From positions 128,755 through 192,754 of the forward strand of contig NZ_BSFI01000007.1 of NCBI RefSeq assembly GCF_027922265.1: a stretch of 64,000 bases of DNA. The letters run 5' to 3'. The position numbers were made by a program, and so were the translations under genes. The stretch is from Hansschlegelia plantiphila. GTDB taxonomy: Bacteria > Pseudomonadota > Alphaproteobacteria > Rhizobiales > Methylopilaceae. Positions 56,746-61,186 of this stretch are shown here, in pieces; position 1 is the first letter of the stretch, and every line of letters begins with the position of its first letter. Below the pieces are notes generated by a model, which was not told the DNA's origin, did not search any database, and saw only the letters and a list, made by a program, of their open reading frames with translations.

Positions 56746-57186
56746 ATGACAATCAAGACGATCGCGCCGCCGTTCGCCGCCGCTCTCGCGCCCGCGACAT
56801 GGGAGCGTCTCCGCGGCGAATCGGAGATTCGCGCCCATAGGGCGGGCGAGACCATTCTCGCCCGGGACCGAACGACGGAGGAATTCTACTTCCTGCTCAG
56901 CGGCCGCTGGACCATGCGGCGTTTCGTGCGCGGCGTTTCGGAGGCGCTGGTCTGGCGCGACGACGCGCCCGGCGCCTGGGTGTCGGGCGTCGCGGCGCTC
57001 GAGGCGATCGCCCCGACCGACGTTTTCGCCGACAGCGACTGCGAGGTGCTGGTCGCGTCCCGCGACCTCGTCCACGGCTTGATCGCCGTGGATCCGGCGC
57101 TCGCGACCCGGCTGCTGCGCGACATCCACCGCTGGAGCGAGCGGCTGGAGGTCCATGCGGCGCTGATGCGCGCAAAGACGCCGTAA
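56746..57186 (+). CDS. Cyclic nucleotide-binding domain protein without DNA-binding domain
   Basis: 146 residues from ATG 56746. A Crp-type beta-barrel domain: IRAHRAGETILARDRTTEEFYFLLSGRWTMRR, then a less conserved phosphate-binding region (GAWVSGVAALEAIAPTDVFADSDCEVLV) lacking the canonical GExALL/RxA cassette. It ends where Crp's helix-turn-helix would begin, so it cannot bind DNA like Crp and may not bind cAMP. Its stop overlaps the ATG of the next gene (TAATG), so the pair is probably translated together. Confidence 0.8.
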   Translation: MTIKTIAPPFAAALAPATWERLRGESEIRAHRAGETILARDRTTEEFYFLLSGRWTMRRFVRGVSEALVWRDDAPGAWVSGVAALEAIAPTDVFADSDCEVLVASRDLVHGLIAVDPALATRLLRDIHRWSERLEVHAALMRAKTP

Positions 57187-58211
57187 TGGGCGCGCGGGCC
57201 GTCCGGGTGATCGACTGGGTCTCGCGCGGAAGCCGGGTCGCGCTCGCGGCGTCGGTCGGCGCGGTGGCGATCGGAGCCGCGTCCGACTTCGGCTTCACCG
57301 TCCCCCTTGAGGTCGCGATCCAGCGTGGTCTGTCGCAGGTAGCGACGCCCGAGGCGCTCGACGCCAGGGCGCAGGCGGCGCTCGACGCCGACGACGTCGC
57401 GCTGGCGCGCGGGCTCGCCGATCTCGGCGCGGAGCTCGGCCGGCCTTTGCCTGCGGAGACCCTCCAGCGGCTGACCGCCGCGGAGGCGCCGGCGGCGGTC
57501 GCGTGGCGCGACGCGCGCGGCCTCGCGCATGGCTTCGCGACCGGAGAGATCGACGGCTCGGCGTCGCTCGTCGGCGCGCTGGCCGCGGACCTGACGCTGG
57601 TCGGCGACGTCCGCGACCTCGCGACCGAGGGATCGAAGATGGCGCGCGGCGAGGACCACAGCAATCTCATCCTGGGTCTCGCCGCGGCCGGCGTCGCGGC
57701 GACCGCCGCGACTTACGCGACGGCGGGCGCGGGCGCGCCGGCGCGTTTCGGCGTCTCCATCCTGAAGGCGGCCCGCAGAACAGGCGTCATGACGGCGGAA
57801 TTCGCCGCCGATCTCGGTCGCCGCATCGCGAAGACCGGAGAGACGTCCGCAATTCGCGCATCGGGCCGCGAGGCCGGCGCCGTCGAGACCCTCCTCGGCG
57901 CTTCGACCGAGCTCCGCGCGGTCGGCGGCGCGGTCGGCTCGGCGGAGACCGTGCGGTTGATGAAATATGTCCGCTCCGTCGGCGAACTTCCCGAGCTTCG
58001 CCGCTTCACCACGCGCTTCGGAACCCGAAGCCGGGCGGTCGCCGAACTCACCGGCAAAGCCAGCCTGCGCGTCTTCCGCACGACGCTGCGGGTGGGCGAG
58101 ATGTTGATGAGGCATCTGCTGGCGGCGCTGATGTGGTTCGGAGGGCTGATGCTTGGCGCGATTTCGAACATCGGCTGGCGTGGGCTGAGGTTCCTTGCCG
58201 CGAAGGTCTGA
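57186..58211 (+). CDS. Membrane-associated protein of unknown function
   Basis: 341 residues, Ala/Arg-rich, with hydrophobic stretches near residues 18-35, 155-175 and a strong one at 308-332 (LMRHLLAALMWFGGLMLGA). No known motif. The central part is alpha-helical and amphipathic. It is coupled by overlap to the Crp-like domain gene, suggesting a sensor-effector pair at the membrane. Homologues exist in Rhizobiales as hypothetical proteins, as far as I recall. Confidence 0.78.
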   Translation: MGARAVRVIDWVSRGSRVALAASVGAVAIGAASDFGFTVPLEVAIQRGLSQVATPEALDARAQAALDADDVALARGLADLGAELGRPLPAETLQRLTAAEAPAAVAWRDARGLAHGFATGEIDGSASLVGALAADLTLVGDVRDLATEGSKMARGEDHSNLILGLAAAGVAATAATYATAGAGAPARFGVSILKAARRTGVMTAEFAADLGRRIAKTGETSAIRASGREAGAVETLLGASTELRAVGGAVGSAETVRLMKYVRSVGELPELRRFTTRFGTRSRAVAELTGKASLRVFRTTLRVGEMLMRHLLAALMWFGGLMLGAISNIGWRGLRFLAAKV

Positions 58212-58317
58212 GCGCAACAATTCGTTGCGCCGGGACGGACGGTTTCAATCATCCGTTATGCTTTATTCCGCATCATTTCCAAGGATGCCCGTCGCGATGC
58301 TCCTTGGGGGACCGACT

Positions 58318-58572
58318 TTGGACGAGCCGCTTCGCGACTTCCCTACCGAGACCGCCGAAAACCCCGATCTCGTCGACGTCGAACGCGTCCACTTCGGGCA
58401 GGAGCCGGCGAACGCCAAGTTCCTCGGCGACATCTTCCGGCTCGTCCACACCATGAAGAGCGCCGTGCGGCGTCTCGGGGACAACGATTTCGGCCTGCCA
58501 GCGGCTCAACCACGTCACCGCCGAGCTGCAGGAAGGGTCATGAAGACCCGGATGCATCGCGGCGTGATGTGA
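58318..58572 (+). pseudogene. cheA: Remnant of chemotaxis kinase gene cheA
   Basis: TTG 58318 opens a reading frame matching the CheA Hpt domain: PLRDFPTETAENPDLVDV and FLGDIFRLVHTMKSA, with the phosphorylated histidine in VHTMK. About 60 codons in, similarity breaks. At 58502-58534 another frame reads RLNHVTAELQE, and at 58539-58556 the first frame reads VMKTRM. Both match the CheA kinase-core segment (LQEGVMKTRMQPIGN in intact homologues) that normally lies hundreds of residues later. The product is therefore an internally deleted, frameshifted CheA. It has no ATP-binding or CheW domain. The 106 bases before it (58212-58317) hold no other gene. Confidence 0.85.
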
Positions 58573-58623: not shown

Positions 58624-58989
<366 letters not shown>

Positions 58990-59080: not shown

Positions 59081-59275
59081 ATTACGCGTTTCGACATCGT
59101 GTTCTGCCGCAACGTGCGGATCTATTTCGACGAGGCGACCAAGGCCGACGTCGTGGCGCGCATCGCCCGGCAGACGGCGCCGGACGCTTCCTGGCGCTTG
59201 GCGCGGCCGAGAGCCTGATCGGGCGCGCGGTTCGCGCCGCATCCCGCGCACCACTTCGTCAATCAGCCCCTCCAG
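59081..59275 (+). pseudogene. cheR: Remnant of chemotaxis methyltransferase gene cheR (C-terminal part)
   Basis: Frame one reads RFDIVFCRNVRIYFDEATKA and DVVARIARQTAPD, the AdoMet-binding core of CheR near its end. The match then shifts frame: the next frame gives GRFLALGAAESLIG, the closing CheR strand. After 59235 a third frame gives HHFVNQP, a possible tail. The first two thirds of cheR and all of cheW and cheB are missing from the 92 bases between the cheY-like stop and this point. The remainder to the ctrA terminator (59276-59341) shows nothing recognisable. Confidence 0.8.
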
Positions 59276-59341
59276 CGTGAGCCGCCGCCGCGCATGACGG
59301 TCGTCGGACGCTGCGTGCGACTTCGGCCGCCCTGAAAAAGC

Positions 59342-59375: not shown

Positions 59376-59396
59376 GTAGAGAGGCTGACGGGGCGA

Positions 59397-60101
59397 TCAG
59401 GCGACTGCGCGGGGGCCGTCGTCCTCGTTGGGCTCGCGCAGCACATAGCCGCGACCCCAGACCGTCTCGATGTAGTTCTTGCCGTTGGTGGCGTTGGCGA
59501 GCTTCTTGCGGAGCTTGCAGATGAAGACGTCGATGATCTTCAGCTCCGGCTCGTCCATGCCGCCATAGAGATGGTTGAGGAACATCTCCTTGGTGAGCGT
59601 CGAGCCCTTCCTGAGGCTCAGAAGCTCGAGCATCTGGTATTCCTTGCCCGTCAGATGCACCCGTGCGCCGCCGACCTCGACGGTCTTAGTGTCGAGATTG
59701 ACGATGAGGTCGCCGGTCGTGATGACCGATTGGGCGTGGCCCTTCGAACGGCGGACGATGGCGTGGATGCGGGCGACGAGCTCGTCCTTGTGGAACGGCT
59801 TCGTCATGTAGTCGTCGGCGCCGACTCCCAGGCCGCGAACCTTGTCCTCGATGCCTGCGAGGCCGGACAGGATCAGGATCGGAGTCTTGATCTTCGCGAC
59901 CCGAAGCGCGCGGAGCACCTCATAGCCGGACATGTCGGGCAGGTTCAGGTCGAGGAGGATGATGTCGTAGTCGTAGAGCTTACCGAGATCGATGCCCTCT
60001 TCTCCGAGTTCCGTCGTATAGACGTTGAAACTCTCGGACTTGAGCATCAATTCGATGCTTTGAGCCGTAGACCTGTCGTCTTCTATGAGAAGAACGCGCA
60101 T
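59397..60101 (-). CDS. ctrA: Cell-cycle response regulator CtrA
   Basis: OmpR-type regulator that controls cell-cycle, division and motility genes in alphaproteobacteria. 234 residues: receiver with D51 ([14 protein letters not shown]), the CtrA-specific [44 protein letters not shown] stretch in parts, and the winged helix with [32 protein letters not shown]. It is nearly identical in these blocks to other rhizobial CtrA proteins from memory. The C-terminal tail ends AVA, loosely like the Ala-rich tails used in ClpXP turnover. The upstream region carries seven GANTC sites. Confidence 0.98.
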
Positions 60102-60103
60102 GC

Positions 60104-60446
60104 GATTCCTCCATCGATGCCCGCGCTACCTGCCCCGGAAGAAGCGGGCAACACGGTGAACCGATCGTTTCCAGTCCGATTCAAGCTTAGTGGCGAAAGG
60201 TTAACAGAATGTGATTCTGCGCCGCAAGCTCGTTCTGATTCATCCGCTCATTTGCCGTAACCGACTGAAATTGGACAGTTTTTCCAAAATCGCGATTTCG
60301 ACTACTTTCTTAAAGAACGAGGCTAACTGACTCTTTCGACTCAAGCTTTGGGTCGCGAGGCGGTTTCCGATCCCTTAAGGCGGCAGTCTCATAATTAAGC
60401 AGAGCGGTAAATGAAGGGTTACCCTCGGGCCGTCCGGTCAGGATTC
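60104..60446. promoter_or_regulatory. ctrA control region with seven GANTC methylation sites
   Basis: GANTC occurs at 60104, 60178, 60213, 60237, 60329, 60338 and 60442: seven in 343 bases, where roughly one is expected at this base composition. This is the CcrM target, and Caulobacter ctrA transcription is known to depend on the methylation state of such a site. The region is AT-rich and also holds CtrA-like half sites (TTAA at 60201, 60310, 60375 and 60395), though no full TTAA-N7-TTAA box. It separates ctrA from the divergent fliI remnant. Confidence 0.8.
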
Positions 60447-60453
60447 GATAAGC

Positions 60454-60745
60454 TTGTTTTCAACGGGCGCGCTGCGCGGCCTGCCGCAGACGGTGGAGGC
60501 CGCCCGCAGTCGCCAAGCGTTCGGCCGTGTCGTCGGGGTGCGCGGCCTGCTGGTCGAGGTGGCGGGCCCGCTCGGCGCGATGGCGGCGCCTATCGCCCGG
60601 GATCGCGCCGGAGGTCGACGAGGCGATCGCGCTCAATCAGCCGTTCGAGCAGTTTCTGACGCAAGGTAAGGAAGAAGCAACACGTCTCAGCGAAGGCTAT
60701 GCGCTGCTTCGTACGATCTTAAGCGTTCCGGCAACCGGACGCTAA
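60454..60745 (+). pseudogene. fliI: Internally deleted flagellar export ATPase gene fliI
   Basis: From TTG 60454 the frame reads RQAFGRVVGVRGLLVEVAGP and LGAMA, the FliI N-terminal barrel. At about 60590-60610 the match jumps frame and goes straight to the FliI C-terminus: EVDEAIALNQPFEQFLTQ followed by KEEATRLSEGYALLRTIL. An intact FliI has about 440 residues; here roughly 45 N-terminal and 45 C-terminal residues remain and the entire P-loop ATPase core is gone. fliJ follows 15 bases later. Confidence 0.85.
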
Positions 60746-60760
60746 CCGGCGTGTGTTTCC

Positions 60761-61186
60761 ATGGCTGACATGAAGTCCCGAGACACCCTCCTTCGCCTCA
60801 AGCGCTTCCAAGTCGACGAGAAGCGCCGCCAGCTCGTCCAGATCGAAACCATGATCGCCGAATTCGAGCGCATGGCGAACGACCTCGACCGCGAAATCCT
60901 GCACGAGCAGGAAAAGGCGGGCATCCACGACATCGCCCATTACGCCTATCCGACCTACGCCAAGGCCGCGATGGCCCGTCGCGACAACCTCAAGCGCTCG
61001 GCCGACGAGCTCGCCGGCCAACTGACCGACGCGCAGGACGCGCTGGCGGAAGCGTTCGAGGAGCTGAAGAAGGTCGAGCTGCTGGAAGAGCGCGACGTCG
61101 CCCGCGAGCGTGTGGCGGACGCCGCCCGCGACCAGGCCGAGATGGACCGCACCGGGCTCTCGCGCACCGAGATGCGGGTGGGCTGA
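60761..61186 (+). CDS. fliJ: Flagellar export chaperone-like protein FliJ
   Basis: 141 residues, fully alpha-helical coiled coil. KSRDTLLRLKRFQVDEKRRQ and HYAYPTYAKAAMARRDNLKRS match alphaproteobacterial FliJ. FliJ normally sits in the FliI hexamer and delivers export chaperones. The frame is intact although fliI directly upstream is destroyed. ATG 60770 is an alternative start and fits homologues better. Confidence 0.88.
   Translation: MADMKSRDTLLRLKRFQVDEKRRQLVQIETMIAEFERMANDLDREILHEQEKAGIHDIAHYAYPTYAKAAMARRDNLKRSADELAGQLTDAQDALAEAFEELKKVELLEERDVARERVADAARDQAEMDRTGLSRTEMRVG

Follow-up and report, generated by a model that had tools for sequence, protein, structure and literature searches.

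Why should an intact fliJ stand directly behind a fliI that has been destroyed? The question is raised by a locus of Hansschlegelia plantiphila that lies within a 64,000-nucleotide stretch of DNA, hereafter the window (NCBI RefSeq assembly GCF_027922265.1, contig NZ_BSFI01000007.1, positions 128,755 to 192,754 of the forward strand). Comparison with the intact fliI of Hansschlegelia quercus places the break point of the relic at 60585. An N-terminal piece of about 40 codons (60467..60585, plus strand) aligns to bases 4-123 of the H. quercus gene, and a C-terminal piece of about 52 codons in another frame (60585..60742, plus strand) aligns to bases 1173-1332 with one 1-base gap; the deletion between them amounts to about 1,050 bp and includes the P-loop domain. 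The C-terminal piece still scores 26.7 bits with T3SS_ATPase_C (Pfam cut-off 22.7), and where H. quercus has an ATG close to the beginning of its gene the relic has CTG, this being the one candidate start codon compared. The first-pass annotation had described two fliI pieces in different frames without the P-loop domain, and both this and its coordinates were correct, whereas its figure of about 45 residues per piece was not. The fliJ that follows (60761..61186, plus strand) is, as had been claimed, a clean frame of 141 codons, and it exceeds the cut-offs of both TIGR02473 (59.6 bits; cut-off 50.45) and PF02050 (29.6 bits; cut-off 28.4). Two options had been offered for this state, namely that the decay is recent or that FliJ has another partner.

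Compared with H. quercus, the surroundings of the locus have lost cheW entirely and cheA for the most part, but still carry intact copies of ctrA, fliJ and the CheY-like gene. The ctrA gene (59397..60101, minus strand; NF045991, 422.9 bits) is divergent from fliI and fliJ and has an omega below background. The region between ctrA and the fliI relic (60102..60453) belongs to a block, 59392-60585, with 83.6% identity to H. quercus. Convergent with ctrA lies the intact gene of a CheY-like single receiver protein (58624..58989, plus strand; Response_reg, 101.7 bits). Two plus-strand relics of cheA precede it, an N-terminal one (58316..58479) and an internal one (58463..58556), which align with gaps to bases 4-168 and 760-860 of H. 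quercus cheA, respectively. A cheR-like relic on the same strand (59087..59340) was named by eye from its translation. The DNA from 59087 on matches the cheY-ctrA interval of three other genomes (G002, G012, G007) and not that of H. quercus; the cheR-like match ends at about 59211-59222 in two of the three, and the stretch of G001 stops short of this site. Upstream of the cheA relic, a 341-codon frame (57186-58211) is collinear with a 338-codon frame in H. quercus and has no Pfam or NCBIfam match up to an E value of 1.

The genome itself is 3.82 Mb in size and 100% complete. The genus as sampled includes H. quercus, H. zhihuaiae, Chenggangzhangella methanolivorans, a strain filed as Chelatococcus sambhunathii and a Methylopila MAG. 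Both flhA and fliI exceed their cut-offs in 12 of its 13 sampled genomes, the window genome being the sole exception for either gene. Profile searches of the window genome found no candidate for flhA or fliF and no match to flbT. No second FliI exceeded the cut-off of 587 there; the three matches, all of at most 228 bits, are read as F1 subunits and Rho. An intact flagellar regulon or second FliI elsewhere in the genome, which the first-pass annotation had named as its counter-case, is therefore rejected, as neither was found. Contig C7 is collinear with H. quercus until just before the position of the H. quercus flhA. The main flagellar cluster of H. quercus, whose genes were named by eye from their translations, has been removed block by block from contig C4. 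A dehydrogenase-like gene is retained in the middle of that cluster, with fragments at the cluster's edges (G000:C4:231778-236963, locus L146). Since the 12 other sampled members of the genus all keep flhA and fliI and the scars are still readable, the flagellar loss in the window genome is recent, which bears out the first of the two options as far as timing is concerned. With FlhA, FliF and FliI missing, we infer that a role of FliJ in flagellar protein export is excluded for this genome. Extra matches below the flagellar cut-offs occur elsewhere, FlhA- and FliI-like in G007 (C1:3118447-3127775) and FliI-like in G010 (C93:2162-3397), and perhaps belong to a non-flagellar type III system.

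The second option was followed up across the order in 397 genomes, each at least 90% complete. Profile searches matched FliJ in 378 of them and FlhA in 318 (302 of these FlhA matches over the family cut-off, 16 under). FliJ is present in 68 of the 79 FlhA-less genomes; the 11 that have neither are ten genomes of family f4 and one further genome, G277. Outside f4, FliJ is thus found in 68 of 69 FlhA-less genomes (once as a contig-end fragment), as compared to 310 of 318 FlhA-positive ones. FliJ is equally frequent with and without FlhA, so that in this order it follows lineage rather than flagella. Not one of the same 69 genomes has a FliI over cut-off. FlbT, a flagellar protein of similar size, occurs in only six of the 69, all of one genus, and in eight of eight flagellated controls. 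These six genomes of genus g76 (G108, G135, G216, G262, G319, G385) have FlbT at 85-101 bits but neither an FlhA match nor a FliI over cut-off, and the question arises whether a second flagellar regulator is kept there without flagella. The ten f4 genomes (G020, G069, G101, G130, G155, G176, G196, G213, G229, G245) are all 1.3-1.6 Mb in size, and f4 is the only sampled family in which FlhA and FliJ are absent from every member. Among three FlhA-less FliJ scanned against the Pfam FliJ cut-off of 28.4, one passes (32.4) and two fall below (24.2 and 17.3). No named non-flagellated example was found among 80 named loci, every one of which has a fliI match.

The position of fliJ is also constant. 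Among the 66 FlhA-less loci that were fetched, of which the window is one, 65 have fliJ 325-921 bp from ctrA, and the two genes are divergent in all 65; G259 has no ctrA within the fetched stretch. These counts leave out G363 (a 34-residue match at a contig end), G277 (no match) and G351. A trace of fliI appears in the window alone among the 66 stretches, which extend 1.5 kb to each side in about half of the cases. Among the FlhA-positive loci, fliI adjoins fliJ in 43 of 49 (28/28, 15/20 and 0/1 in the three batches); in the other six (L226, L227, L228, L229, L231, L246) fliJ stands beside ctrA with no fliI there, so the unlinking of fliJ from fliI does not need flagellar loss. In each of families f1, f21, f32, f42 and f49, fliJ is linked to fliI in an FlhA-positive member and unlinked in an FlhA-less one, which we count as at least five separate events. 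Within the 33 long FlhA-less loci, chpT falls inside the fetched stretch in 17, and a CheY-like receiver with at least 38% identity is found around ctrA in seven.

Constraint on the protein was estimated as well. In genus g76 (13 of 13 sampled members FlhA-less), 12 FliJ sequences give an omega of 0.136 (omega = 1 rejected, P = 2e-88), and in genera g34 and g101 of family f32 (12 of 12 sampled members FlhA-less) nine sequences give 0.145 (P = 3e-69). Five further FlhA-less groups, parts of whose trees may have been flagellated, reveal FliJ omegas of 0.09-0.17, as compared to 0.09 and 0.15 in two FlhA-positive sets. In the groups tested, selection on FliJ is strongly purifying. The fits used our own codon likelihood, on gene trees built from short sequences and with relative branch lengths fixed. 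They cover 52 of the 65 non-window FlhA-less FliJ; the 13 left out are thinly sampled families and one duplicate, and the groups exclude G188, G351 and families of one or two sequences. For the C-terminal segment, the f2 and f23 omegas hit the bound of the fit and carry no meaning. All 66 FlhA-less fliJ frames are 109-146 codons long. The retention of FliJ where no FliI exceeds the cut-off, together with this purifying selection, supports the second option, a flagellum-independent role.

At the window itself the matter is less clear. On the window branch, fliJ has an omega of 0.089 vs. 0.091 for the background, and omega = 1 is rejected with P = 1.3e-5. For the relics omega is raised about 2.5-fold (P = 0.02). 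The hypothesis that fliJ is as relaxed as the relics gives P = 0.058, and a single ratio for fliJ and relics together is not rejected (P = 0.14). Small gaps, counted by eye, number seven per 535 aligned bp in the relics and none per 423 bp in fliJ (P = 0.004, or 0.09 when paired gaps are left out). From window data alone, the case for a selected fliJ is weak. It is here that the strongest rival explanation applies, according to which there is nothing but recent decay and the window fliJ is a now functionless gene merely not yet broken. Loss confined to one of 13 sampled genus members, relics that are still readable with an omega only modestly raised, and an intact FliJ tail would all fit such a state. 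However, decay alone leaves unexplained why FliJ is matched in 67 FlhA-less genomes besides this one and why omega is 0.14 in groups with no sampled FlhA-positive member, and the gap contrast also points the other way. We regard this explanation as unlikely, though the most serious of the rivals.

A segment test, read on a structural model, indicates which part of FliJ is kept. The AlphaFold model of the window FliJ (pLDDT 91.8) is a hairpin of two helices, residues 2-53 and 65-140. A fold search with this model returned no match with E ≤0.001; flagellar FliJ (3ajw) appeared at rank 26 with E of 0.51, a TM score of 0.73/0.76 and a probability of 0.99. A PDB sequence search with FliJ profile A1 returned no FliJ and a single match, haemoglobin, with E of 0.59. 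A comparison of raw conservation between flagellated and FlhA-less FliJ was biased because many of the flagellated rows came from one genus, and it was replaced by a segment test with held-out families. The tail model, covering residues 111 to the end, was trained on 36 fliI-linked FliJ, with seven held out (families f21, f32, f42, f49). All 43 FliJ that adjoin fliI score 19.0-53.4 bits (the held-out seven 19.0-29.3), vs. at most 11.6 bits for the 70 FliJ without an adjoining fliI, that is, 65 FlhA-less proteins (≤11.6) and five unlinked FlhA-positive ones (≤4.1). Residues 1-105 score at least 82 bits in all groups. Part of the FliJ divergence seen in unlinked families goes along with the phylogeny. 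To judge from helix lengths in the AlphaFold model, the lost tail may extend past the start of helix 1. In Salmonella, FliJ is described as entering the FliI ring, with its protruding helix-loop-helix end binding FlhA (PMC9114704). If this geometry applies, the loop end lies in the part that is kept, and what is lost belongs to the end that holds the termini. The window FliJ tail, at 37.0 bits, is within the range of fliI-linked proteins, and since fliI is dead while this tail is intact the locus is transitional.

The tail also bears on another candidate partner. FliJ might work with the F1 ATPase, the last rotary ATPase of the family that is left in these genomes, as a rotor-like or inhibitory factor. 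Salmonella FliJ is reported to enter the A3B3 ring of the V1 ATPase and to promote its ATPase activity (PMC3665681), and the best FliI-family matches in the 69 FlhA-less genomes outside f4 have scores like those of F1 subunits. Nevertheless, the segment that goes missing without fliI is the C-terminal end of FliJ, and what enters the ring in F1 is, according to the same source, the coiled coil of the N- and C-termini (PMC3665681). This makes the F1 partner very improbable. Retention of fliJ solely for regulatory DNA of its neighbour ctrA would agree with the constant divergent neighbourhood and the CtrA-like boxes in between, but it has next to no chance, as the idea is largely refuted by constraint at the protein level (omega of 0.09-0.17 in the groups tested) and fliJ starts 315-920 bp from the ctrA match. 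The boxes themselves, scanned with at most one mismatch to what we take to be the CtrA motif, occur in 60 of 65 ctrA-fliJ intergenic regions vs. 7.1 in shuffles that preserve base content only, and they may serve ctrA alone.

Nearly all sampled flagellum-less relatives keep FliJ beside ctrA, so the FliJ of this order probably has a second, flagellum-independent role. We therefore favor an account in which the flagellum was lost recently and fliJ is kept since the ctrA-linked FliJ has two jobs, one of them independent of the flagellum, and we give this account as a whole a probability of roughly three in four. The bacterium, of the Hansschlegelia/Methylopila type, would have shed its flagellum through piecemeal deletions. 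The first job would be that of FliI's partner and would require the C-terminal end of the coiled coil. For the second, non-flagellar one, residues 1 to about 105 would be sufficient, forming the hairpin with an HxAYPT[YF]AKAA turn. Once the flagellum is lost, fliI would be deleted, fliJ would remain beside ctrA next to the ctrA promoter region, and its tail would decay. A single protein with both jobs is the simplest account, though an inferred one. Counting against it are the ten f4 genomes and G277, which live without FliJ, the two FlhA-less FliJ below the Pfam cut-off, and the six FlhA-positive loci in which fliJ is already unlinked from fliI.

The position of the gene, and nothing else, suggests a role near the CtrA pathway. 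The hairpin could act as an adaptor within the CckA-ChpT-CtrA cell-cycle pathway of alphaproteobacteria or close to it, and what the locus has in common with that pathway is the siting of fliJ beside ctrA and, in about half of the long FlhA-less loci, close to chpT; both the adaptor role and its partner are a guess. The bolder proposal, that a bifunctional FliJ is an unrecognised member of the ctrA module, acting as hairpin adaptor of CckA-ChpT-CtrA and in flagellated lineages also as the stalk of the FliI ring, is a speculative one that we would not bet on. If it were true, flagellar export would have a direct physical tie to the cell cycle, and one that outlives the flagellum. In Caulobacter, CtrA is reported to bind flagellar promoter regions including those of fliI and fliJ (PMC6169604), so that fliJ is there a CtrA target, unlike in the present proposal. 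FliJ as a part of the CckA-ChpT-CtrA pathway is named in no paper found by our literature search, and full-text searches of open-licence papers (subscription papers and preprints being outside the scope) revealed no description of a FliJ that stays linked to ctrA after the flagellum is gone.

Compared with flagellar FliJ (TIGR02473, PF02050, 3ajw), the window protein shares the antiparallel two-helix hairpin and scores above both family cut-offs. It differs in that its genome yields neither an FlhA match nor a FliI over cut-off, that its gene adjoins ctrA rather than an intact fliI, and that the C-terminal end is gone in its non-flagellated relatives. Retention of flagellar export genes for another function has been described for the non-flagellated Lysobacter enzymogenes, where the function is twitching (PMC7277350); that bacterium keeps flhA, flhB and fliI, whereas in the present case it is FliJ that stays after the loss of FlhA and FliI. 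HP0256 of Helicobacter pylori is likewise a FliJ homologue, reported as no functional counterpart of FliJ, but it belongs to a flagellated bacterium and is needed for full motility (PMC2864241). Brucella FliH/FliI/FliJ are given as pseudogene in a table of PMC8781033. Annotation calls FliJ a flagellar export protein, and its presence is easily read as a sign of a flagellum. As FliJ persists without one, is strongly selected where tested and stands beside ctrA, this annotation is misleading here. The gene is small, defined and conserved, and thus suitable for testing a new role, and the window catches the switch midway, with fliI freshly destroyed and the FliI-associated tail of FliJ still present.

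The CheY-like receiver across ctrA may belong to the same putative module. The gene that converges on ctrA in S. meliloti, SMc00653 (PMC2780559), has been termed a receiver-domain protein (PMC12542648) and described as a Clr-cNMP target (PMC10127613); by its position it resembles the CheY-like gene of the window. The latter is intact among che relics and similar ones occur near ctrA elsewhere; a function apart from chemotaxis is therefore possible for it as well. Its omega is 0.079 vs. 0.041 for the background, and omega = 1 is rejected with P = 0.0018.
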